NCBI GenBank assembly: GCA_013178305.1
Contig: JABLXB010000001.1
Span: forward strand, 750,253-814,252
DNA from: Bacillota bacterium
Lineage (GTDB): Bacteria > Bacillota > Sulfobacillia > JABLXB01
Reading direction: 5' to 3'
DNA: 64,000 nucleotides
A program made the position numbers and the translations under genes. Position 1 is the stretch's first letter; each line of letters begins with the position of its first letter. The notes below the pieces were generated by a model. The model saw only the letters and a program-made list of their open reading frames with translations, was not told the DNA's origin and ran no database searches. Below are positions 38,448 through 54,665 of this stretch, piece after piece.

Positions 38448-39698
38448 TTACCGAAGCTCCTTCGTCAGCGAGCCCAGGAAGTCCTTATTCGAGCGGGTTT
38501 TGCCGAGCTTGTCGATGAGCATCTCGAGCACCGTGGACGGCTCGCGGTCGTTGGTTACCTTGCGGAGCATCCACATGATCTCCAGTTCGTCCGGCCTGAA
38601 CAGGAGCTCTTCCTTGCGAGTGCCGGACCTCTTGATATCGATCGCGGGGAATATGCGGCGCTCGGCGAGCTTCCTGTCCAGGTGGAGTTCCATGTTGCCC
38701 GTGCCCTTGAACTCCTCGTAAATAACGTCATCCATCCGGCTGCCGGTGTCGATGAGCGCGGTGGCCAGAACCGTGAGGCTGCCACCTTCCTCGATGTTTC
38801 GCGCCGCGCCGAAGAACCGCTTGGGCTTGTGGAACGCCGTGGGGTCCATGCCGCCGCTGAGCGTGCGCCCCGACGGCGGGAGCACGAGGTTGTACGCCCT
38901 GGCGAGCCTCGTTATGCTATCGAGGAGTATCACGACGTCCTTCTTGTGCTCTACCAGCCTCTTCGCGCGCTCGAGCACCATTTCCGAGACCCTCACGTGG
39001 TTCTCGGGGATCTCGTCGAACGTCGAGCTGATGACCTCCCCGCGCACCGACCGTTCCATGTCGGTGACTTCCTCCGGCCGCTCATCCACGAGCAGCACCA
39101 TCAGGTAGACCTCGGGAAAATTCGTAGTGATGGCGTTTGCGATCTTCTTGAGGAGGACCGTCTTGCCGGCCTTGGGGGGCGACACGATCAGGCCTCGCTG
39201 CCCGGCGCCTATTGGCGCTATGAGGTCTACGAGGCGTGTGGCTGTCTCGTCCCTCGCGGTCTCGAGCACCAGGCGGCGATTCGGGAACGTGGGGGTGAGG
39301 CCGTCAAAGTAGGGCCTCTCTCTGGCGATGTCGGGGTTGACCCCGTTCACTGCCTCGACGCGCAGGAGGCCGTAATACCTCTCGCTGTCCTTCGGGGGTC
39401 TGACCTGGCCTGAGATGAGGTCCCCTGTCCTGAGGTCGAACCGGCGTATCTGGGACGGCGATACGTAGATGTCCTCGCGGCTGGGTAGGTAGAAGTTCGG
39501 GCGAAGGAACCCGAAGCCGTCGGGCATGATCTCGAGTATGCCCTCCGCGAATATCAGCCCACCCTGTTCTGTCCTTGTCTTCAGGATTTCCAGTATCAGT
39601 TCTTTCTTTCTGAGGGCGGAGTAGCCGGTGATGTTCAGGTCCCTGGCGACCTTCTGCAGTTCAACCAGGGTTTTGGCTTCGAGCTCGCCGATGCTCAA
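38448..39698 (-). CDS. rho: Transcription termination factor Rho
   Basis: The 416-residue hexameric RNA helicase ends untranslated transcripts. The N-terminal [13 protein letters not shown] helix, the RNA-binding cold-shock-like domain with [33 protein letters not shown], and the motor domain with [12 protein letters not shown] (Walker A) and [18 protein letters not shown] are intact. The start is TTG after GAGGTGA. A leader of about 340 bases precedes it, with an early terminator (see 39955-40040). Confidence 0.97.
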
Positions 39699-39954
39699 AC
39701 ACAGTCACCTCGTTAGGATTGGTTTCCAATTGATGGGGGCGTTATACAGAGGCAATTCCGTACGGACACCCGGCAGATGCGTGACAACCCCTGACAAACG
39801 TACGCATGTCAGGCGTATTCCCGCGCATTTATCGGGCATACCGCGGCGAATTGCGGGCGAACGGGCGTATTTCGACAGGCTGATATCCTCCACCGGGACC
39901 TGGTGCGAAACTTGTCCCCTCCTACGGGGTTACAGAACAGGGGCTTTCCCGCTT
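39699..39954 (-). other. Rho leader region without a convincing gene
   Basis: About 255 bases between the terminator at 39955-39994 and the rho TTG. It contains several short inverted repeats (for example ACATGCGTACGTTTGT and CCCCGTAGGAGGGG on the minus strand). A 62-codon open frame at 39705-39893 lacks family resemblance and I do not call it. The region may be the target of autogenous Rho control, which is known for rho in other bacteria. Confidence 0.5.
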
Positions 39955-40040
39955 CGAAAAAACTGGGCCTCCGCTCTTGGTAACCGAAGGCCCCCCTAGC
40001 AAAAACCGAGGAGGATGAAATTATGTAGGCCACTACCCAA
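39955..40040 (-). ncRNA. Short promoter-to-terminator transcript upstream of rho (sRNA or attenuated leader)
   Basis: The sigma-A promoter at 40046-40074 would start RNA near 40039. After about 45 bases comes a stem GGGCCT...AGGCCC (39963-39994) followed by AGTTTTTTC, an intrinsic terminator. The product would be about 85 bases long. Its first, probably unpaired part carries CATCCTCCTCGG, in which CCTCCTC is complementary to Shine-Dalgarno sequences. I cannot decide between an independent small RNA and a premature-termination leader of rho. Confidence 0.55.
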
Positions 40041-40045
40041 ATATT

Positions 40046-40074
40046 AGTCTACCATCCTGTTTTTTCACAGTCAA
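40046..40074 (-). promoter_or_regulatory. Sigma-A promoter of the rho leader / small RNA
   Basis: TTGACT, a 17-base spacer and TAGACT on the minus strand. It lies about 90 bases after the tal stop, so rho need not depend on the tal transcript. Confidence 0.75.
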
Positions 40075-40161
40075 GGTAGTAACCCACGATTTTCCCTCGA
40101 TTTTTGTGAACGACGGGGTCTCGTGGAGTCGCAGCCTTCCCGGGGCCGGCCGTCCGGGCCC

Positions 40162-40815
40162 CTACTTTCCCCCGGTAACCTTCGCCCAGTCGTCAAGGAA
40201 CCTCTTGATGCCCTGATCGGTCAGCGGATGCTTCATCATCTGTTGCAACACGGCGAACGGTATCGTGGCCACATCGGCGCCCGCCAGCGCCGCCTGCGTG
40301 ACGTGTGCGGGATGCCTCATACTCGCCGCGATCACCTGCGTCTTTATCCCGTAGTTGCGGAATACCGTGACGAGATCGCTCACGACCTGCATCCCGTCCA
40401 TGTTTATGTCATCGATCCTGCCAACGAACGGGCTCACGTAGGTCGCGCCCGCCACGGCCGCCAGTAGTCCCTGGTTCGCCGAGAATATCAGGGTCACGTT
40501 GGTCTTTATTCCCTCCGCCGTAAGCCGGTATACGGCCTTCAGCCCTTCCGCGGTCATGGGGATCTTGACTACCACGTTGGGAGCAACGGCGGCCAGTTCC
40601 CGGCCTTCCCTTACCATACCGTCGGCGTCCAGGCTCAGGACCTCCGCACTCAGGGGGCCCTTCACGATCTCGGCTATCTTCTTTACGACCTGCTTCATGT
40701 CGGCCGTTTTCTCCTTGGCTACGAGCGAGGGGTTGGTCGTGACCCCCGCCAGGACACCCCAGGAGGCGGCCTCACGGATCTCCTCAATGTTGGCAGTGTC
40801 GATGAATATCTTCAC
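40162..40815 (-). CDS. tal: Transaldolase / fructose-6-phosphate aldolase family protein
   Basis: The 217-residue protein starts [13 protein letters not shown] and belongs to the small transaldolase subfamily (TalC, YwjH). The Schiff-base Lys is in NVVVKIPMT, and [20 protein letters not shown] and SPFVGRIDD are conserved. It moves a three-carbon unit in the pentose phosphate pathway, or cleaves fructose-6-phosphate. The start is GTG 40815 after GGAGTGA. In B. subtilis ywjH lies near rho too. Confidence 0.95.
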
Positions 40816-40864
40816 GCTGATCACTCCGATTCTATCGGGGGTACGCCCGGCAGTGCGTTCCTGG

Positions 40865-41566
40865 CTATTCAGGCTCGCCCGAATCCCTTCCACCTTCCCC
40901 CACACGGCGGCCAATCCTGGCCGGCTTGGCCCCGACTCCGCCAGCCGCCGGCGATGCGAGCTCCACGGACACGACTCCTTCATCGTAGAGTATTTCCGGC
41001 GCCGGTTGTGCGTACGCCCGTTCGCCAACCTCCGGATCGCCCACGGGTGCGAACAGGCTCGTGCCGCACTTAGCGCACCATAGCTCCACGCCCCTGGGAT
41101 ACGCTTCGATCTCAAGCGAGGTATCGCAGCGCGAGCACCTGAGCTTTCCCTTGTCGTCCAGGGCAGCCAGCTTCGTGAGGATGCCCAGGCCCGCATCGGG
41201 GTCGTCGAAAAGGGCGGCTACTTTGCTTAGCCCCTCCTCGCGGATATCCGCAACCTTGAGGAGCCCCCACATCGGCCCTATGTAGCCGATCTCGGCGCTC
41301 GTGTCCGGGCAGAGGATGGACTTGATGTCTCTCGACCAGAACGCCTTGTCTCCGAACTTGAAGAGGTGGACGCCGTCACAAAGAAAGCAGGAAAGCTGGA
41401 GCCACACGTCCGTGCCTTTCCTGCTCGCCGTCAGGATGTGTTGTCCACAGGAGCACTGGAACTCGCGCCTGCTGGACTTGAGCGAGAACAGCGACACCGG
41501 GAAGATGTTCGTGTTTCCACAGGCCGAGCACCGCAAGGCGATCCCTGTCTGCCTGCGAGTTAGCAT
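40865..41566 (-). CDS. Zinc-ribbon protein of unknown function
   Basis: The 233-residue protein carries several Cys pairs: RCSACG and QCSCG near the N-terminus, SCFLCDG next, and CSRC...CAKCG in the second half. They suggest two zinc-ribbon modules flanking a helical segment (about residues 100-150). The C-terminal part is Gly/Ala-rich and poorly ordered. No enzyme motif is visible. The start ATG 41566 follows AAAGGGGGC. It stands between the kal-like gene and tal in the same direction. Zinc-ribbon proteins of this kind are common in sporulating Firmicutes but I cannot name the family. Confidence 0.75.
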
Positions 41567-41716
41567 CGGGCGCCCCCTTTCCGCGCATACCTTCGCTGGA
41601 GAGGGGGAAATTCCTTTCGCCTGTCGATGGGTTGAGGGGCCGCGGCGCGGGGCCACATTGCTGGTCGTCTCGACGAAGCCACAACAGAGCCCACGGCGCC
41701 GCTGCCGAGGCCCCGT

Positions 41717-42112
41717 CTAACCCTCGTGCTTGAACCTCTGCAGTTGCTTTGGGACAACGCATGTACCGGTCGCCCTACCCACCAGCACGGGTTCTTTGAG
41801 GACCTCCGCTGCCGACGGATTGTTCGGGTCGTGGAGGGACGAGATCACCTTCCACGCCTCGAACTCCATCTTGCGGGAGGTGTTTCCGGCCTTCGTAATC
41901 CGGCCTTTTATCTCGAGATAGTCGCCCGCGTAGATGGGCGCCTTGAATTCAACCATGTCGTACGCCGCGAACAGCCCCTCGTCGCCGTCGTAGCGGATGA
42001 GTATCTCCGTCGCGACGTCGCCGAAGAGCTCCATCATCCTGGCGCCGGCGACCAGGCCGCCGCCGTAATGTGCGTCGTGTTCACCGATCCTGACGCGAAG
42101 CATGGCTTCCAT
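41717..42112 (-). CDS. kal: Hot-dog fold enzyme, 3-aminobutyryl-CoA ammonia-lyase (Kal) like
   Basis: The 131-residue protein resembles the Kal family of the lysine fermentation pathway: [21 protein letters not shown] near the N-terminus, [10 protein letters not shown], and [11 protein letters not shown] followed by [11 protein letters not shown]. It would remove ammonia from 3-aminobutyryl-CoA to give crotonyl-CoA. The usual partners (kamA, kamDE, kdd, kce) are not in this window, so here it is a lone copy, and another hot-dog acyl-CoA activity is possible. The start is ATG after GGAGGT. Confidence 0.72.
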
Positions 42113-42167: not shown

Positions 42168-44789
42168 TTACGGGGTTTTCGGCTCCAATTTGTAGTCCAG
42201 ACCGAGCCTGATGGCTATCTCCTTCGTCCGCGGACCCTCGTTCGCGAGTTCGGGACTGGTTTTCAGGGCTTCCTTGAGCTTCTGGCCGGCCGTGCTGTGA
42301 TCCCCGGTAGCAGCTATCATCATAGCCTCCCAGAATACCGCCTTGGCCTTCACCACCGGGTCGGCATCGGCCAGCGCAGGTTTAAGTTCATCATACATGG
42401 CCTCGCGCTGTCCAAGGAAGAACTTCGCTTGTGCACGGTATACCCCCATCATCGGGGTGGCCTTCAGCTGCGCTTCGGGCAGTACGAACCTCCTGTATCG
42501 CTCAGGTATACTGGCGTTGGTTTTCTCCAGCGCTACAAGCACGTCGAGTCCCATGGTGAGCGCCTTCCTGGCCTCGTCCGGCTTGCCGCTCAGCGCCAGG
42601 CGCTTTCCGCTCTCCACGTATAACCCCGTCAGCACCTCGTAGCCAAGGGACAGGAATCTGTTGTTGGATATCGCTATCTTGGCGTGTTCAAGCGCCGCGT
42701 CGGGCTGGCCAGAATTGAAGAGGATTGCCGAGTAGTGAAGCCTCATAGCCGCATCGTAGGGGCTAAGGCTGACCGCCGCGGCTAAGGAGTCAAGGGCCTT
42801 CTTAGCCAGGTCCCTGTCGCGCTTGGCGTTGGCCAGGGTCTCATACCACTGCCCGAGATCGGCTCTAGTTGACGCACTCAATGGGTCAAACGTCGCGGCT
42901 CTTTGAAGCAGGGAAATGGCTTCATCCGGTTTGCGCTGGGCCCATGCGTTTATCGCCCTGGTACTATACAGCCCACCAAGGGACAGGCTCGCGGTCAAGA
43001 GGATGGCCAGGGCGAACGACCCGAGGGCCACACGGTGACCCAGCCTTCCTGTCAGAGCAGCATCAAGGCGCGATACCAGGCGCGCGCCACGGGTCCCCGC
43101 ATGGTGCGTACGCGGACGGCCGTCCTCAGCGAGCGATGACAGCGGCGTGGCAATCTGTGAACCGCGATATACAACTCCGGCCATCGCCCACAGGAACACG
43201 GCGACAGCAGGGAGGCTCAGACTGAAATCCAGGGCACCGTGCAGACCCAGCCCGGCGGCCGCGACTCCCGCTCCACAAACGGTGGTCCGGAGGCCGGCGC
43301 TTTGGCTGGTGTTCCGCATGGTTGTCCACACTGCCCTCAGCAGACAAAGCCAGAAGGCCATGAACAGGAAGAATCCGATGAGTCCCGTGTCAACGAGAAC
43401 CTGGGCGAAGTGGTTGTGTACGAGCTTAGTATAATACGGATAAGCCTTGTATTTGTGATAGACCAGCGCCCAGCCTCCACCACCCGTCCCCGTTATCGGG
43501 TGGCGGAGCACGATGCGAGCGGCGTCCAGGGGCCATATTATCCGTTCCTGCAGGCTCTGATCGGACAGGGCAAAAGACTGGAGGCGCGCCAGCGGCCCTG
43601 CAGTCTGAGTCTTCCCCAGCAACAGCGCACCAGCCGCCAACGCCAGGATCAGTCCAACCGCAATAATAACAGTAACGAGGACACGGGAGCCCGCGTTGTG
43701 TTTCAACGACCGGTTGAGAGGGCACGAAGCCAGTCTTCCGCCAACAGCTGCCGACAGGAGGCAACACAGGATTGCGATAACGACCAGCGCACATGCCCCC
43801 GCAGCCGAATAGCCCAATACACACGTCCACGCTCTGGCAGCATTGAGCGGTTCCAGGTGGGAGCTGAAGCGCGTAGCTGCGACAGTCCCTGCGACCACGC
43901 TAACGACAACATACAGCAACGCGTGCGCCTTATGAGTCCAGGGCACTCCCACGATGAAGAGGGCCGCGACTACAGGAAAGACGAGCCATGCCGCCCGGGA
44001 CTGGGTCAGTACAAATCCAGCGAAGGCGAAGGGTCCCGCCGAACCCCAAATGATTGGCTCGACGAAGTATAGTCCACTTACGCCGGTTCCACTCGCAGTC
44101 ACACCGGCCGTAAGGGAGGCTATTCGCCGACTTTGCAGGCCAACCGTCGCCTTGAGCCAGGCGGTGGCAACAGCAAAGAACGAGGCTATGAGGGCCGACG
44201 CAGCGGTGTTAGCATACTGTAGTGTCGAAAAAAGACGGCCGCCTTCCCAGGCGGAGGGGTAGACGAACACCTTCGTCGCCGTTGTCATTCCCACGACGGT
44301 GATCATTACGCCAGAGACGCCCACAACCTTGATGATCAGATCCAGGTCTTGTTCCCGAGTGGCAGATTCAGCGACCAACCACATTACCGCCACGAGCATT
44401 CCGGCCGTGAGCGCCTCGCCCAGGGCGCTTCGAATCGATGCTGCACCGGGTATCGCGATTACGTATGCAGCTGCCACGCCAATAGCGGAAAGCCCCAGCC
44501 CCCCGCGGGGAAGCACCGCTCTGGCGCCACCCGCCCTGTAGCGCGTTGCCACAAGCCACACAATCCCCAGCGCGAATGTGACTATCTCCGCGACGAACCT
44601 CTGCTTCTCGAAATAGAGCCCCTGGAAGTAGGGTGCGGCAAAGACGAACACACACAGGGCGTACAACGTGAGGCGAGACAGGGGATCCCTGCTGGCAGGC
44701 TCAAGGGATGCCACTGCGACTTCGCGGGTCGCGCTAACGGTTGTGAGTGCCGAACCGGCGGCTTGACTGGTACGCTTCCGCTTCGACAA
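42168..44789 (-). CDS. O-antigen ligase/polymerase-like membrane protein with TPR tail
   Basis: The 873-residue protein has about 11-13 hydrophobic segments in its first 580 residues. A Wzy_C/WaaL-like region with the periplasmic loop ([30 protein letters not shown], about residues 440-480, with the conserved His-Asn-His) follows. The C-terminal third (about 620-870) is made of TPR-like helical pairs. Such proteins join or polymerise surface glycans, and the TPR part may bind partner proteins or glycan. The start is TTG after GAGGTGGAGG. It follows the subtilisin-like and SLH genes by 45 bases, pointing to a cell-surface operon. Confidence 0.88.
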
Positions 44790-44834: not shown

Positions 44835-47800
44835 TCACAACCCGAGACGCCTGATCAGTCCTTCGCGCAGCTTCTCCTTCTCCGGGTCGCTGCTTGGCTC
44901 TGGAGTTTTCGCTGAAGCAGGAGGCAAATCCTTCACAACCAGCGTTTTGGACATGATGGGCTTGCCGCGCATGAGCAGAGTAATCTCGACTTCACTCGGG
45001 ACAGTGACAGATAGCGTGACAGCCCCATCTTCCAGGGCGTGAGTCCTGCCGTTTATCATCACGGCTATTTCACTCCACGGGTCGTATGAGGCACGCGCAG
45101 ATTTCACCGTTACAAAGCGGCTGTTGACTCCGGCCAGGCCGCCAAGCTCCACCGACCACGCAGTATCGGTATCACCGGCAATGACAAGCGGTACGCTGGC
45201 CAGAAGCGAGCCGTTGCTGTCGTCCACGACCTGGACTTCCATCTCTCTGGGCCGCCCGGCCGGCGTGGGAATGTCGAAAGATGCCGGTAGGGCTTCATCT
45301 TTTTCGAGATACGCGGGGTTCTGCCGATCCCAGGTAACGGCGGGGTCATTCTTAAATGCGCGCAAGGTCAACTCGCATCGAACGTCAGATCCCGTGTCCC
45401 TTGATTCAACGAACAGCATATAAGAGCCGGGGGCAGGGTCCTTCAAGTCAATTCTCTCGTTAGACGACCCCAGGGCTGCGGATGACGCGACCTCTTTCCA
45501 CCCCGTCTGCGGGTCAAACACATGCAGGTAGAGGTCGACATCCGCACGCGCACTGGACGGGTGGCAAGTCGACGCCAGTATGCGGGAAGTGCCTTCCGTT
45601 ACCGTGAACGCCCTGCTGAACGAATGTTGCCGGGGGACGACGATGACCTCGTGGTCCGCAGTGCCGGACCGCTCGGCGCGCGACGCCGCGGCCAGCCGTA
45701 TTGTGGCGTTTGCCCGGTAGTTGGCGAGGCCGAACGTCACTCTGGCTGAGCCGTCGGACGGTCGATACTCGACGGACGGCGGCCACGGGGCAACCAGGAA
45801 TCCGAAAGACGAGACCGCAAGAGTCACGGGGACGTCACGGTCACCCCCGTCCCTGAACAGCACGATCTCCCACACGCCGGCCTCCGGGTCGCGGACCACC
45901 TTGACCGACCTTGACGCGGCGGGAAGATCCGCCATGTAAGCGCGCTTTCCCCCGGGCCCGACAACCTGGATTTCCGCCCCTTCTTCGCCCGAATTCACTC
46001 CATCAACCCTCAGCTCGGTGCAGCCATGCGGCACCGAAACGAACTGCCTCCTCACTTCGCCCGGCTTGAGTGGCGCGGACGATTCAGGCCACAGGGTACC
46101 CCCGGCAGGCAAAGGACTCGCTCGAACGACAGCATGCCTGGCCATCATTATCGTGCGACCCGTACGCTCATCGACGCCGCGCACTACGGTGGATTGTAGC
46201 CCCGGTGGGATGTCACCGTACTCAAACACGAGGCTTCGCTCACCAACCGCCGGAGCAATCAGCTTCGCCTGCCGGGGTTTGACCCACTCAGACTCACTCC
46301 GGAAGCCCATGCTGGAGGATTCCCCGGAGAAGTTGTCCACGTAGAATCTCGCCGACCCCGGGACAAACCCCCTGGCAAACAGCCCACCATCGCGGTGGCC
46401 TATGGGGTCTTCCGCCACCACCGTCATCGGCGCTCTGAATCCCGCTTTCAACAGGTCGAAGGCCCGGGACACATCGAGGACTCCGCCACCCTGCTCTATC
46501 ACCGTGGCGCTTGAGACTCTCCGGCCACCCTCCGAAAGCGCCGACAATGCGCTGCGCGCATCGGGCCGTACACCGGCCACATCGCACGCACTCACGAGTA
46601 ATGCGGAACAGCCGGCTGCATAAGCCGCCGAGACCGCAGTCCCAGTGGCCAGCGCATACCCACTTCGCGAAAACCATGTCGGCACGGTAGAAGCGGCGGA
46701 CACGGGCGCGAGCACGTCCGGCGCCCAGCCGCCCACCGGTGTTGGCCCTACTGCGCTGCGCGACCAGACTCCGGGAGCATCCGCAGGCCCCGTCGCCCCA
46801 CCTACGGCAATTGCCGACACACTGTCCGTCGGGGCCTTACAGGACTCCAGAGCGGGTCCCCCGTCACCGGCCGCGAACAAGACAACTACGTTGTACCTAC
46901 TCACGACATCGGCAATGAGTTCCCGCAGGCCCTGGAGGTGCTCGTCCGTGAGGATTGTCAGACCCGTGTCGACGAGAATGACTCTGGCGCCGCTGCGCGA
47001 CGCGTGTATGATGGCCTGGCTGATGGCCTCCCAGGACCCCCTGCCGCTGGAGTCCAGGACCTTCAGCGCGATCAGCGTCGCCCCGGGAGCGACACCGTTC
47101 ATTCCCTCCTGGAGTCCCCTGGCGGCGACCAGGCCGGCCAGGAATGTGCCGGTCCCCAGCGAGTCAAATCCAAGCCTTACCGCGGACCCGTCCCGGGATA
47201 TGCCCGCCACCACGAAATGCACGGCTGATGAATTGACGTTGCCGGACTTGTCGCGGAATCTCGAGAAACCCCCGGATTCCCCAAACGCTCCCACCGGCAC
47301 CTCGTCGGTAAAATCCCGGTTCTGGTTGGTGTCAACGTAGACGCGGCTGTAGACTCCCTTCTGCGCGTGGTCTATAACCAGCACCGAAAACACGTCGGTC
47401 GTGAGCCCGTTGCCGTTGAGGTCTTGCCCAAGCGCACCTCGAGCGTCCAGCGCCGCTTCGCGGAGTACGCCGACCCTGAGAGCGCCGCCGGCACTCCGGA
47501 GGTTACCCGTCTTCAGGCGGCCGAACCTGGTGTCTACCCAGCCTCTCGATGGAATGACCGGCTCCGTGTTGACCAAGCCTTCATCCGTGAAGTCAGCCCA
47601 CTCAGTAATCTTTGCCGATCCAGCCGGCGTGCGCTGGAGGTCTTTGTGGCCGGGATCGATACCGGAGCCTATAACCGCCACGGCCACCTTACCGCCATTC
47701 ACGCGGAGACTGCTCGAGAGGCTTTGCGCGCCCAGGATCGACGCCGCCTGCACGTTCAAATCGCCGTTAAACTGGCCCAGGGGAGTCATCTTGGTTCTCG

Positions 47801-47981
47801 AAGTGGAAGGGTCGACAGTCAGGAAGTCTGAGTCAGGAGCGTCTGTCGAGGCGCGAGCCGTGTTTAGCACAGTAAAACCGGACACGAAAGCGTTCAGGGC
47901 CAGTATGGCCGGAGAGCGTCCTGCTGACATAAGAAAGGACACCAGTAAACACACTGTTATCAGCGACCCGGCCCGCTTCAC
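44835..47981 (-). CDS. Secreted subtilisin-fold pseudoprotease (S8 family without catalytic residues)
   Basis: The 1048-residue secreted protein has a signal segment (residues 1-25) and a subtilase domain (about 95-505) with a long insertion between the first and second motifs, as in pyrolysin or tripeptidyl peptidase II. The fold motifs are clear but every active-site residue is changed. VAVIGSGID has Gly105 for the Asp, SLGTGTFLAG has Thr277 for the His, GTAVSAAYAAG has Ala449 for the Ser, and AAGDGG has Asp373 for the oxyanion Asn. About 500 residues of beta-rich domains follow, including two pre-peptidase-like domains (for example DVDLYLHVFDP). It is therefore a binding or structural protein, not a protease. 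I prefer GTG 47981 over TTG 48005. It sits between an SLH protein and an O-antigen-ligase-like protein. Confidence 0.88.
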   Translation of the reverse strand: MKRAGSLITVCLLVSFLMSAGRSPAILALNAFVSGFTVLNTARASTDAPDSDFLTVDPSTSRTKMTPLGQFNGDLNVQAASILGAQSLSSSLRVNGGKVAVAVIGSGIDPGHKDLQRTPAGSAKITEWADFTDEGLVNTEPVIPSRGWVDTRFGRLKTGNLRSAGGALRVGVLREAALDARGALGQDLNGNGLTTDVFSVLVIDHAQKGVYSRVYVDTNQNRDFTDEVPVGAFGESGGFSRFRDKSGNVNSSAVHFVVAGISRDGSAVRLGFDSLGTGTFLAGLVAARGLQEGMNGVAPGATLIALKVLDSSGRGSWEAISQAIIHASRSGARVILVDTGLTILTDEHLQGLRELIADVVSRYNVVVLFAAGDGGPALESCKAPTDSVSAIAVGGATGPADAPGVWSRSAVGPTPVGGWAPDVLAPVSAASTVPTWFSRSGYALATGTAVSAAYAAGCSALLVSACDVAGVRPDARSALSALSEGGRRVSSATVIEQGGGVLDVSRAFDLLKAGFRAPMTVVAEDPIGHRDGGLFARGFVPGSARFYVDNFSGESSSMGFRSESEWVKPRQAKLIAPAVGERSLVFEYGDIPPGLQSTVVRGVDERTGRTIMMARHAVVRASPLPAGGTLWPESSAPLKPGEVRRQFVSVPHGCTELRVDGVNSGEEGAEIQVVGPGGKRAYMADLPAASRSVKVVRDPEAGVWEIVLFRDGGDRDVPVTLAVSSFGFLVAPWPPSVEYRPSDGSARVTFGLANYRANATIRLAAASRAERSGTADHEVIVVPRQHSFSRAFTVTEGTSRILASTCHPSSARADVDLYLHVFDPQTGWKEVASSAALGSSNERIDLKDPAPGSYMLFVESRDTGSDVRCELTLRAFKNDPAVTWDRQNPAYLEKDEALPASFDIPTPAGRPREMEVQVVDDSNGSLLASVPLVIAGDTDTAWSVELGGLAGVNSRFVTVKSARASYDPWSEIAVMINGRTHALEDGAVTLSVTVPSEVEITLLMRGKPIMSKTLVVKDLPPASAKTPEPSSDPEKEKLREGLIRRLGL

Positions 47982-48030
47982 GTGTCGACTTCCCTTCCTG
48001 GACAACCGGTTCGAGCCTCTTCGTGAAGGC

Positions 48031-49344
48031 CTATTGGACTATCGTGCTGAACGCCTGGAGGAACAGCACCGTCCCGTCGTTCGCGACGCTGCCCTGAAAA
48101 ACGTCCCCCTGGCGAACATCAGCAAGAGCGGCAAGTGAGCCGTCACGGTAGATGATCGTATCGCGGTCAATCCTCATGGTCTCGACCCCGGAGCCTGCCA
48201 CCCTGGCGGTGAGGCTGAAGGCAGGAACGGACACCGTGAGCACCCTACCCCCGGTGTTCATCTTCGCTACATCCATGAGCCTGACCACCCCACGCTCGGA
48301 ATCGAAAACGAAGTACGCTCTATCCCCTCTAGAGACTGCGGAGAAGGCCGATTTGTTCCGTAGAACGTGCACCTCGGTGTCGTTACTTACCACGGCGCGC
48401 TTCGTCACGCCGACCCGATCCACGTACGACACCGTACCGGTGACTCCATCTATGTCATCGACATATCCTACGTCATCGATGTAGCGGGCCTCGACGAAGG
48501 CGGGGGAACTTCCCGAGTCGTTGATAACGTATATCTCATCAAGCGCTCTAATGTCTCCAGGCGCACACCGGACGCCGTTCCTGAATAGCGCGGTGTCAGG
48601 TCCTACGTTGACCCTGGCTCCACCCATTGTGGTGTCGATGGTTATGACTCCCGCTCCAGCATCAACACTTCGAACTACTCCCCCCAGGTCGTACCTGTTC
48701 CCCCTGAAGGCCATCGCCCGCCAGATGAGGGCACAGGCCTCCGAGAACCTCACGGGCTCATGCAGACGGAGGTCACCGCCGGGGTCTCCCACCAACCATC
48801 CAAGATGAAGAGCAGTCGAGACCTCGCCTCGAGCCCATTCGGGAGTGTCGTCCATGTTTGCTGGGAGGATGCCTGTGCGTTCTGTCGGGACAAACGGCTG
48901 CAACACCCTGACAAGCAGGACGGTTGCCTCTACACGACTCACAATCGAATCCGGCTTGAACCTGCCGTCGCCGTACCCCTTCACCCATCCTCGCTCGTAG
49001 GCCGCACCGATGCTGGGTGCAGCCCAGTGCCCAGCGCTCACATCCCGAAACGGAGAAAGCGGCCCAGGCGCACCGCTGTCAGTCTGATCCATCGTCACAC
49101 AGCTGAGCAGCAGGTGAGTAAACGCGGCGCGGCTCATACCCTCCTCCAAAGCCGGCACCGCGGGCATAGAAGAGAAGCATCTTCTGGCTTTCAGGGCCTC
49201 CACGTACACGTCCGCCCATCGCCCCGGCGTATACGCGCCCACAACCAAAGGCCCGGTGCCTTTCCCCACAAGGGCAACTGCAATACTAAGGACTAACGAA
49301 GTCAACAGCAGTCTGCAATTGCTTATCAGTCGACGCTTAGGCAT
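48031..49344 (-). CDS. SLH-domain surface protein
   Basis: The 437-residue protein has a signal peptide (about residues 1-36), then three SLH-type repeats: a degenerate one (40-85), a good one with PFRDVSAGHWAAPSIGAAYERGWVKGYGDGRFKPDS (about 98-135), and a third around 155-215. The C-terminal half is beta-rich with several short repeated hairpins (ITIDTTMGG, VSYVDRVGV, LTVSVPAF). SLH modules bind pyruvylated wall polymer, anchoring the protein at the surface. It is first in the apparent operon SLH protein, pseudoprotease, O-antigen-ligase-like protein. A weak promoter (TTGAGA, 16 bases, TATGCG) lies upstream. Confidence 0.9.
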   Translation of the reverse strand: MPKRRLISNCRLLLTSLVLSIAVALVGKGTGPLVVGAYTPGRWADVYVEALKARRCFSSMPAVPALEEGMSRAAFTHLLLSCVTMDQTDSGAPGPLSPFRDVSAGHWAAPSIGAAYERGWVKGYGDGRFKPDSIVSRVEATVLLVRVLQPFVPTERTGILPANMDDTPEWARGEVSTALHLGWLVGDPGGDLRLHEPVRFSEACALIWRAMAFRGNRYDLGGVVRSVDAGAGVITIDTTMGGARVNVGPDTALFRNGVRCAPGDIRALDEIYVINDSGSSPAFVEARYIDDVGYVDDIDGVTGTVSYVDRVGVTKRAVVSNDTEVHVLRNKSAFSAVSRGDRAYFVFDSERGVVRLMDVAKMNTGGRVLTVSVPAFSLTARVAGSGVETMRIDRDTIIYRDGSLAALADVRQGDVFQGSVANDGTVLFLQAFSTIVQ

Positions 49345-49688: not shown

Positions 49689-50312
49689 TCACTCCAGTCT
49701 GTCGTACATTAATCCGAGCCGGTTCGCAATGTTCACCCAGATTTCATGACTGTGCTCTTTCCACGCTTGTTCTTCGGTTGTCTCACCAGAACGGACCTTC
49801 GCGATCCATTTAGGCGTGAGCCTGTCACGCTCCGCGATCCATACCACCTTGATTCTCCAGGCTTCCGCTATCTTCTTTCCCGTCTGCCTTGACAGCAGAT
49901 ACCGGGTTTCGTCGCATCCCACCACGTATACCGATTGGATATTCCTTTCAGGGCCACCGTGGTAGTACAGAAGGGTAGCATCCTGGTATGACAAAGATGA
50001 TCTACTGGTGTGAGTATGAATCTGAATATAGCGTTTACCGGCAACCATCTGGTTTATGTGCTGTGCCATATAGACTGAGCTGTCGTCACCCTCGAGGAAA
50101 GCCCCGAGCAAACCGCCGTCTTGAGTATCAACCATGGACGCCCATTCTCTGCCCGTCTTCAGGGTCATCCCCAGGAGTCTAGCGGCTATCTCCTGTGCAG
50201 CCCTTGCGGCTTCCGGAGACCATCCATGACGCCCCCAAACGGTCTTGGAGAATTCTCCGGCTGCGGACCATGTGCCATCATCACGTCTTTGCCATCGCCT
50301 AACATATGCCAA
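49689..50312 (-). CDS. JAB/MPN-like domain protein, mobile-element context
   Basis: The 207-residue protein contains IHTHTSRSSLSYQDATLL (about residues 98-115), a H-x-H-x6-S-x2-D pattern close to the JAMM/JAB zinc site of MPN-fold isopeptidases (usually x7), with a possible upstream Glu in GAFLEGDD. The rest is helical with a Trp-rich C-terminus. Such domains occur in RadC-like and phage or toxin-related proteins. The start is uncertain: TTG 50312 has no ribosome-binding site and would lie only a few bases after the start point of the extended -10 promoter at 50322-50330, so the mRNA may be nearly leaderless. Confidence 0.55.
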   Translation of the reverse strand: MAYVRRWQRRDDGTWSAAGEFSKTVWGRHGWSPEAARAAQEIAARLLGMTLKTGREWASMVDTQDGGLLGAFLEGDDSSVYMAQHINQMVAGKRYIQIHTHTSRSSLSYQDATLLYYHGGPERNIQSVYVVGCDETRYLLSRQTGKKIAEAWRIKVVWIAERDRLTPKWIAKVRSGETTEEQAWKEHSHEIWVNIANRLGLMYDRLE

Positions 50313-52013: not shown

Positions 52014-54665
52014 TTATGGAGCAGGTGAAACCACCAGGAACTTCAGCGTCTGCCCAGCCGCTGGAGTCGCGCCAGTGTAGAACTTGACCCAGTCAAGCGC
52101 CTGGACTTCTCCGAACGTGATGGCTATCGGATCCTTGCTGGTATCCGTCCAGCTCCAGTACTGGGTGTCGTCGTCGACATAGTACCAAGCATCGCTCGCG
52201 CCGATCGCTATCCTCTTGGTGCCCGAGGACTTGACGCTGTATACCTTCGCCGCGGTGCCCTGGTCTATCTCGTCATACCACGTTACTGTGCCGCCGGACA
52301 TCTTGTAGCTGATCACATCACCCTTAGCGAGACCTGCCCAGTCGTAGCTAGCGCCGTCCAGGCCACTCTTCATGGGCTTCTTGACGGTGGTGCCAGACGA
52401 GCTCAGGATCTTGACATACGGCCCGTCGGCATCATAGCCCTTGCTCATGACCATGGAATACGTAGCATCCGACGCTACTGCCTCGTTCACCGCGATGTAG
52501 GTTATCTCCCCATCAGATTGCTTGTAGCCGACTACGTCGATGGTCGCGGGGGCCGTAAGAGCGTCAGCGGCATCGATCAGGTCCTTCGCGGTCACTACCT
52601 CCCAGTCATCCGGGTCGGACGCGCTGACGTCGAACACCACCGCGTTACCAGCGGCCCACGAAGTCCCATTCATCTTGATGTAATTGAGATCCGTATCGCC
52701 GTCTGAGATCGTCCACGTCGCCGGGCTCGTGAGATGGCCGAGAATCTCGAAGTTGTCGATAGCGCCATTGGACTGCAAGGTGAACCTCACCAGAGGCTTG
52801 GCTGCCGCATTGATATCGCCGGACTCAAATTCCCAGGCGAGAGTGCCGCTGTTCCAGGCGTCGTCGCCGACATCGAAGAACACCCGGTTGGGCGAAGCAG
52901 TTTCCCTGCGAGCCTTGGCAAGCTTCGCAGAGTCGGAGTTCACCGGGTACTTGTGGAGCGCGCCGTCCTTGGTGAAGATCTCGATGTCAGTCGTGCTGTA
53001 GCCGGCGCTGCTGGTCGAGCCGAACACCTCGGAGACGACGCCGTACATGGCGTTCTCATACGACTCAACATCCGAGATGATGGCGCGGATGTAGCCATCG
53101 CCGTCGGTCATCGCAGTCACGGTGTTGCCGAGCACGTCACCAAGATCGCTCGAGTTGACTTCTACGAAGGAATCCCCACCATCCGTGGACAGGAGCAGGA
53201 GGCGAGCAGTCGTGCCGCCACGCCAACCATTGTAGCTGGTCCCGTTGATGGTGAAGCTGGTCAGGCCCACGTTGTGCTCTTCAAGCTTGCCGCTGACCTT
53301 CGAGTCGCGCGCCGACAACTTGAAGTCGTAGCCGTTTGCACTTGACCCCTCGTACACCCACAGGAAGTCGCCCGGCTTAATATCCTTCACGTCAGCCAGC
53401 GCGCCATTGCGGAACACGATGTACGTCGTGCTGCTGAGCCCGACCTTGTTGTTGAAGTTGGTCAAGCTCTGGTTGCCGTACGCGCCATCCTTGAAGCTGA
53501 TCTTCTTGGTGGTGGCGTTGACCGTGTCGACGATGCCAGGAGTCGATCCCTCGCTCGTGCGGACGTACGCAATCTCGCCGTCCTCGTTCAACAAAGTGTA
53601 GACCTTCTGATACTTGGTGTCGTCGAGCACAGTACCGTCAGTCACGCTGGCATACGTAGCCCAGGTGCCAGCGATCTTGGACAGCGCAGCCGAGTTCACT
53701 GTGTAGCTCTTGTCGTTGATCTCGAACTTGCTGTCGCTGACTACCTTGGCCTCGGTATCACTCAGGGAGCCGTAGTTCTTGACTTCAGCGTAGATGATCT
53801 CGCCGTCGGTGTTGGTGATGTAGTCGATGATCTTGTTCTCAAGGCTCGAGTAGTGGGCTACGCCATTGAGCACGACGCTCTTGTTCACAGGAACGTCGGC
53901 CGTTGTGGCGCTGAACCCACCATCGTCGTTACCAGGATAGACAGTGATATACCACTTGTCACCCCTGATCTCCCAGCCCTTGCAGAGGGCATCTTCCTTC
54001 AGAGCACCCTCGAAAGCCTCAGAGAGGATGGTCTCGACAGGGGTGATTTTAACGAACTTCTCCCTGTCCTTATCCCATTCATGCTTCTCGACCTCAAGGG
54101 ACTGCTCCGCAAACCAGGCAACGATGCCCCTGGTGGCGGGAGCGCTGCTGTCAAAGGTCACGCCGTCGCTGATGTCGAGGTCGGCGGCCTTCACGAGATA
54201 CTCGATCGGCCAGTCGCCAGGCAGGTTGTCGTTGTAACCGAGCAGCCTGCAGAGGACGGTCAGAACCTCGGCGTTGCTGATGTTAGCCTGAGGCTTGAAG
54301 GTCCCATCAGGATAGCCCTTCATGTAGCCCTGCGATACCGCCAGGTTCACCCAGCCGGTGTACCACTCGCCAGCCTTGACATCCGAGAACTTCGAAGGGC
54401 TGTTCTTCAGGATGTCCCCGCTGGACTTGAGGCCCGCCAGGACGCAGGCGATCTTCGCAAACTCAGCGCGGGTAATGTTGTTGTCAGGCTTGAACGTCCC
54501 GTCCGGATAGCCGGCCAGGACACCCAGGGCCGCAAGCTTCTCGATCTTATTGGCGGCCTTATTGCCGGCAGTGTCACTGAACGCGGCACCGGCGACGCCC
54601 GTAAACCCTGCGAGCACCATGGACAGTACGAGCAGAGCTACGAGAGTCTTCTTGAGATTCCTCAT
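52014..54665 (-). CDS. Major S-layer protein with N-terminal SLH domains
   Basis: The 883-residue secreted protein has a signal peptide (residues 1-28, ending GVAGAAF) and SLH repeats: IEKLAALGVLAGYPDGTFKPDNNITRAEF (about 42-70), VNLAVSQGYMKGYPDGTFKPQANISNAE (about 106-133) and a degenerate third. About 680 residues of beta-rich, Thr/Ser/Gly/Asp-rich sequence with few basic residues follow. This composition, the size and the strong promoter with long leader mark it as the main surface-array protein. The start is ATG after GGGGAGG. It is monocistronic with its own promoter and terminator. Confidence 0.93.
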   Translation of the reverse strand: MRNLKKTLVALLVLSMVLAGFTGVAGAAFSDTAGNKAANKIEKLAALGVLAGYPDGTFKPDNNITRAEFAKIACVLAGLKSSGDILKNSPSKFSDVKAGEWYTGWVNLAVSQGYMKGYPDGTFKPQANISNAEVLTVLCRLLGYNDNLPGDWPIEYLVKAADLDISDGVTFDSSAPATRGIVAWFAEQSLEVEKHEWDKDREKFVKITPVETILSEAFEGALKEDALCKGWEIRGDKWYITVYPGNDDGGFSATTADVPVNKSVVLNGVAHYSSLENKIIDYITNTDGEIIYAEVKNYGSLSDTEAKVVSDSKFEINDKSYTVNSAALSKIAGTWATYASVTDGTVLDDTKYQKVYTLLNEDGEIAYVRTSEGSTPGIVDTVNATTKKISFKDGAYGNQSLTNFNNKVGLSSTTYIVFRNGALADVKDIKPGDFLWVYEGSSANGYDFKLSARDSKVSGKLEEHNVGLTSFTINGTSYNGWRGGTTARLLLLSTDGGDSFVEVNSSDLGDVLGNTVTAMTDGDGYIRAIISDVESYENAMYGVVSEVFGSTSSAGYSTTDIEIFTKDGALHKYPVNSDSAKLAKARRETASPNRVFFDVGDDAWNSGTLAWEFESGDINAAAKPLVRFTLQSNGAIDNFEILGHLTSPATWTISDGDTDLNYIKMNGTSWAAGNAVVFDVSASDPDDWEVVTAKDLIDAADALTAPATIDVVGYKQSDGEITYIAVNEAVASDATYSMVMSKGYDADGPYVKILSSSGTTVKKPMKSGLDGASYDWAGLAKGDVISYKMSGGTVTWYDEIDQGTAAKVYSVKSSGTKRIAIGASDAWYYVDDDTQYWSWTDTSKDPIAITFGEVQALDWVKFYTGATPAAGQTLKFLVVSPAP

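Follow-up and report, generated by a model that had tools for sequence, protein, structure and literature searches.

The locus and the predicted protein

The stretch of DNA analysed here (the window; 64,000 nucleotides of contig JABLXB010000001.1 of a Bacillota bacterium) carries on its minus strand a gene for an S8-fold pseudoprotease (44835-47981), which is read from a GTG at position 47981 as a protein of 1048 AA. The frame is uninterrupted across 44835-48005 and gives 1056 AA when a TTG at 48005 is taken as the start. As a AGGAAGGG box sits just upstream of it, the GTG at 47981 is the more likely start, and the intact 1048-residue frame given in the preliminary description was borne out. 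Residues are numbered below in the 1056-AA frame unless marked as 1048-AA (GTG) numbering. Upstream, on the same strand, lies a gene for a 437-AA SLH protein (48031-49344) with three SLH units and C-terminal beta domains. The next gene on the other side encodes a Wzy_C/O-antigen-ligase-like protein with TPRs (42168-44789, minus strand), and a conserved downstream block with genes for a 4HBT thioesterase, a transaldolase-like protein and rho occupies 38448-42112, also on the minus strand. The same strand carries a 207-AA ORF (49689-50312) with no Pfam match, in which a HTHTSRSSLSYQD stretch is similar to the metal-binding motif HxH...SxxD found in JAMM/MPN proteins.

The pseudoprotease matches Pfam Peptidase_S8 (PF00082) over residues 105-474 with an E value of 1.2e-21 and 77.7 bits vs. 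a curated cut-off of 21.8. Using Pfam together with Foldseek, the S8 (subtilisin-fold) domain was placed at residues 98-520 (46446-47714, minus strand); within it, a long insert separates the positions that once held Asp and His. An AlphaFold2 model (50 sequences) had a mean pLDDT of 86.8 and a pTM of 0.87, and shows C-terminal beta domains at residues 528-1012 (44970-46424, minus strand), a region in which one active orthologue (L036) gave a PPC-like match (PF04151). The preliminary description had suggested a structural comparison with tripeptidyl peptidase II (TPP II), and the best full-length PDB match of the model by Foldseek was indeed TPP II (3lxu; E value 1.4e-40, 1063 columns, TMq 0.49); Vpr, site-1 protease and many subtilisins came next, with a TMt of about 0.87 to subtilisins. 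A sequence search of the PDB likewise returned TPP II as the top match (E value 2.7e-13). Over its entire length, the predicted model is TPP II-like in architecture. A signal-like N-terminus, as judged by eye, suggests that the protein is exported.

Loss of the catalytic residues

The catalytic positions were read from an alignment with 59 relatives; we take them to be those of Asp32, His64, Asn155 and Ser221 in subtilisin. As first described, all four are altered: the catalytic Asp is replaced by Gly113 (Gly105 in 1048-AA numbering; 47667-47669), the His by Thr285 (Thr277; 47151-47153), the oxyanion Asn by Asp381 (Asp373; 46863-46865) and the nucleophilic Ser by Ala457 (Ala449; 46635-46637), all on the minus strand. 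With G/T/A in place of the Asp-His-Ser triad and D in place of the oxyanion Asn of an active S8 peptidase, the protein is, judged by its sequence, a non-peptidase S8 homologue. The motifs that flank these positions, GSGID, GTGTFLAG, AAGDGGP and GTAVSAA, align without gaps, which argues that no triad has been displaced elsewhere. The gap-free alignment of these motifs with 107 active sequences likewise ruled out a displaced triad, and there is no better alignment that would restore a real Asp, His or Ser. The Asn to Asp change also occurs in sedolisins. Sedolisin-like Glu/Asp catalysis was ruled out by a His position that holds no Glu and by a Ser that is gone in two of the three members of the window's order.

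This order was sampled by three genomes from three genera, two of them fragmented MAG-like assemblies. One of the three, G001, is a Bacillota MAG (contig JAHDPS010000079.1, 9,328 bases) and was the single relative found in a scan of genome contigs. At the positions of Asp, His, Asn and Ser, the window protein has G/T/D/A, that of G001 G/A/D/R and that of the third genome, G002, G/T/D/S. A search for orthologues with the same substitutions, as proposed earlier, therefore succeeded in part: Asp, His and Asn are gone in all three members, but Ser is gone in two only, with Arg at this position in G001 and the Ser retained in G002. The loop around the former Ser differs among the three members (ATGTAV/GHGTRI/AESTSV).

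Active orthologues and conserved gene order

Outside the order, Asp, His, Asn and Ser were present in 107 of 107 orthologous sequences wherever these could be read, so the pattern is not due to chance. Of these sequences, 57 belong to the same class but to other families, and in four of them the Asp is unreadable because they are cut before it; the other 50 come from the rest of the phylum. Catalytic residues were missing in the order of the window alone, in each of its three sampled genomes. The proteins of these genomes share 43-47% identity over their whole length and form one clade with a support of 100/100 in a tree built without the catalytic columns. The S8 fold, the loss of catalytic residues and a lineage with active relatives are thus found together. 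Orthologues with an intact triad but decayed frames, which would have told a different story, were also considered; intact-triad orthologues exist, but their frames are intact.

A conserved block of SLH gene, S8, 4HBT, transaldolase and rho was observed across the class, with varying completeness, and the relatives carry an active enzyme at the S8 place of this block. Given the conserved gene order, the comparison is between positional orthologues. An orthologue match at E<=1e-35 was obtained in 59 of 154 genomes of the class, and the gene is kept in all three genomes of the order. With no orthologue at this threshold in many members of the class, the gene is open to loss and in this sense dispensable.

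Constraint after the loss

Within the S8 domain, 26 columns are invariant in the active orthologues of the class, and the window protein keeps 22 of them. The changed columns are exactly D113, H285, N381 and S457; the chance that four columns drawn at random from the 26 would be the catalytic set is 1 in 14,950. The ratio of S8 to C-terminal distances was 0.59 within the clade, and for close pairs of active enzymes the median was likewise 0.59. On a fixed topology, ratios of 0.53-0.65 were obtained for the terminal branches and 0.70 for the stem, vs. a median of 0.57. The dN/dS of the S8 domain, which had been put forward as a check, was 0.27-0.28 by simple counting for two pairs, the third pair being synonymously saturated, and supports purifying selection. 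Since the window protein differs in these invariant columns only at the catalytic ones and the S8 rate ratio is unchanged, we conclude that the loss goes back to an ancestor, has become fixed and stands under purifying selection. Computation shows the catalytic loss together with common ancestry, an intact frame and kept constraint. A pseudogene was ruled out by the intact frame, the retained invariant residues, the branch ratios and the low dN/dS.

Separate trees suggested a burst of S8-domain change on the stem of the clade (1.07 vs. 0.78). It vanished on the fixed topology (0.82 vs. 1.17, the ratio of 0.70 lying within the usual range) and is not claimed here.

Residues around the former active site

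For positions of the former cleft, chosen by hand from knowledge of subtilisin, identity exceeded that of the rest of the domain by 0.04-0.11 within the clade, vs. a median of 0.18 (5-95%: 0.06-0.29) for active pairs of similar divergence. The cleft of the clade is still slightly less changed than the remainder of the S8 domain. As it has lost much of its extra conservation and the loop around the former Ser varies, a scaffold is mildly favoured over a conserved peptide-binding cleft. The walls of S1 and S4 are kept in part (AAG-D, SSGRGSW), and W325 and G323 of the S4 region are altered in the two other members of the order.

Three residues around the former active site, F288, D346 and D381, do not vary within the clade but are seldom or never found in active orthologues; D346 occupies the position of S125 in subtilisin. 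In addition, the insert between the Asp and His positions contains a metal-binding-like loop, RVYVDTNQNRDFTDE (also VDTNQNRDFTDE, VYVDTNQNRDFTDE; residues 221-235, 47301-47345, minus strand), which surpasses all other 15-mers in conservation among the three pseudoproteases and is 93% conserved in the clade. Because the three residues are clade-constant and the VYVDTNQNRDFTDE loop is strongly conserved, a ligand or metal site is possible.

The SLH partner and other surface genes

SLH and S8 were found in one polypeptide in 59 relatives (18 class and 41 phylum sequences), with SLH at the N-terminal end in all except one sequence, and as neighbouring genes in 32 class and 9 phylum sequences. Among the sequences with enough upstream DNA, just one had no SLH partner: L057, a second copy. 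The fused and adjacent arrangements across Bacillota represent fusion or fission of an anchor and an enzyme. Because SLH shares a polypeptide with S8 in so many relatives, the adjacent SLH gene of the window very likely encodes a wall anchor, and fusion and adjacency together suggest, strongly but indirectly, a contact by which this protein very likely anchors the pseudoprotease. The fusions were recorded at loci L038, L042, L045, L047, L050-L052, L058, L062, L066, L068-L070, L074, L077, L079, L082 and L085, and at 41 loci of L098-L143.

The model of the SLH partner matches the Sap SLH bound to pyruvylated wall polysaccharide (6bt4), and each of the order's three genomes has a gene of the PF04230 pyruvyl-transferase family. 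Both point indirectly to a pyruvylated secondary cell-wall polysaccharide to which the SLH partner may bind. Omp85 was not found among 31 genomes of the class, so that an outer membrane is probably absent; a diderm envelope was set aside for this reason.

The Wzy_C/O-antigen-ligase-like gene lies between S8 and 4HBT in the window and in G002, is absent there in G001 and was undetected in the fetched loci of other families; it is therefore not a defining neighbour. Of the cell-surface neighbours on which the preliminary description had relied, the SLH protein is thus constant in the family, but the O-antigen-ligase-like protein accompanies only two of the three pseudoproteases. It is possibly a surface-protein glycosyltransferase. 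A conserved SLH protein, of 883 AA in the window (52014-54665, minus strand), is encoded next to the pair in each genome of the order, with 57% identity in G001 and 43% in G002, and is a candidate S-layer protein.

Interpretation

Starting from the computed residue loss, TPP II-like predicted fold and SLH linkage or fusion, we consider it probable that a wall-tethered protease became a structural or binding surface protein with no proteolytic role. The starting point would have been a TPP II-like S8 protease of wide occurrence, attached to the wall via SLH in the same polypeptide or in the product of the gene next to it. Asp, His and Asn would have been lost in the ancestor of the order to which the window belongs, with Ser following later or in some members, and the non-proteolytic protein would have been retained as a wall-tethered component. 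After export, the present pseudoprotease would be held to the secondary cell-wall polysaccharide via the SLH protein from the gene immediately upstream, and the pseudoprotease may, through the surface of its S8 domain and beta-sandwiches, play a structural or protein-binding part in the envelope. We infer that the protein would show no proteolysis in vitro and prefer a scaffold to a receptor; in our best reading the protein is a scaffold or binding component, with a CspC-like receptor as the main rival.

Such a receptor or regulator, which we regard as fairly unlikely, would bind a peptide, an ion or a small molecule at or near the former active site and pass on the signal via protein contact. 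CspC and CspA of Clostridioides difficile provide a precedent, as they sense germinants without catalysis (PMC6636752, PMC12880746), and F288, D346 and D381, near absent in active orthologues, speak for it together with the conserved metal-binding-like loop. Yet the loop around the former Ser is variable in the clade, the cleft has given up much of its excess conservation and the neighbourhood holds no gene for a cognate active S8 partner: apart from the pseudoprotease, the window genome has a single full-length S8, an AprX-like protein of 403 AA with no obvious signal peptide. We found no active secreted S8 in this genome. AprX-like S8 proteins of 403 AA, with the triad intact and no obvious signal peptide, occur at L001 (window genome) and L147 (G002). 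Matches to PF00082 at E<=1e-10 number 2 per genome in the order vs. 0-13 in relatives from the class. Unlikely, too, in our estimate is a wall-tethered S8 pseudoprotease on vegetative cells that acts as an S-layer receptor or assembly factor, its former active site rebuilt into an acidic pocket (D346, D381), and that was fixed when the whole order arose; this would be a second independent origin of S8 pseudoprotease function in Bacillota besides Csp.

As a decoy or chaperone, the inactive protein would bind surface or secreted proteins in the manner of a protease and shield or retain them. The kept fold, the partly kept S1 and S4 walls and the link to the SLH anchor would all suit this role, but W325 and G323 are changed in the other two members and the cleft is not specially conserved, which makes it distinctly improbable. 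We consider it very improbable that the protein is an unrecognised enzyme working through other residues, such as the Ser of G002 (in ESTSV) or new acidic residues: D346 and D381 are indeed fixed in the clade, but no Ser/base pair is conserved across the three members, the window and G001 proteins have no nucleophile, and Asp and His are lost in all three. A decaying gene heading for loss, to which the presence of an orthologue in just 59 of the 154 class genomes lends something, is hardly credible when the frames from all three genera are long and intact at 43-47% identity, dN/dS is low, the S8 domain is not relaxed and the non-catalytic invariant residues are kept.

Comparison with known systems

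In eukaryotes, TPP II works in the cytosol as an active exopeptidase. The window protein, in contrast, is apparently exported, SLH-linked and devoid of the triad; lacking the triad, it would not be expected to release tripeptides as TPP II does. The combination of an S8 domain with SLH anchoring is shared with SLH-bearing subtilases of Bacillota such as NP_624131.1 of Thermoanaerobacter tengcongensis, in which the order is Subt-PA-DUF1034-Big_2-SLH (PMC2605481). In the window family, however, SLH comes first or in a separate gene, the body is TPP II-like, and the window member is inactive by sequence. A paper on this SLH-S8 family was not found in our limited literature search, which does not show that none exists.

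A survey from 2008 found 42 of 966 prokaryotic serine protease homologues to be catalytically inactive (PMC2605481). Like the window protein, these have lost or substituted catalytic residues and kept the fold. Whereas the survey, as we read it, counted single proteins, here a clade with kept constraint was traced together with its active sister lineages.

Bacterial S8 pseudoproteases had been called little studied in the preliminary description, which is not so: CspA and CspC of C. difficile, in which two catalytic residues are mutated and which transduce germinant signals, are well characterised (PMC6636752, PMC12880746). With these the window protein shares the S8 fold, the catalytic loss, the intact frame and a restricted lineage with active relatives, and the His is replaced by Thr in CspC (T170) and in the window protein alike. 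The Csp pseudoproteases, however, have lost two of the three triad residues and are soluble spore proteins with a prodomain and a jelly roll, found beside the active CspB. The window clade, by contrast, has lost Asp, His and Asn in three of three members and Ser in two of three, and the window protein is about twice as long as Csp, TPP II-like and SLH-linked. It scored below the cut-off of the curated Csp families, with 20 bits vs. 675 for NF040808 (CspC_non_triad) and 28.5 vs. 1250 for NF040809.

Bacterial S8 pseudoproteases were thus already known, and what is new here is one that is TPP II-like, SLH-linked and fixed in one order. It would stand next to CspA and CspC as a second, independent S8 pseudoprotease lineage in Bacillota, and its SLH neighbour is very probably the anchor of this protease family. 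In most relatives the gene at this locus encodes a protease that is SLH-linked and apparently active, and in a single order the same gene encodes a dead one. In this natural experiment, comparison of the active and dead versions allows the role of the protein besides cutting to be asked.
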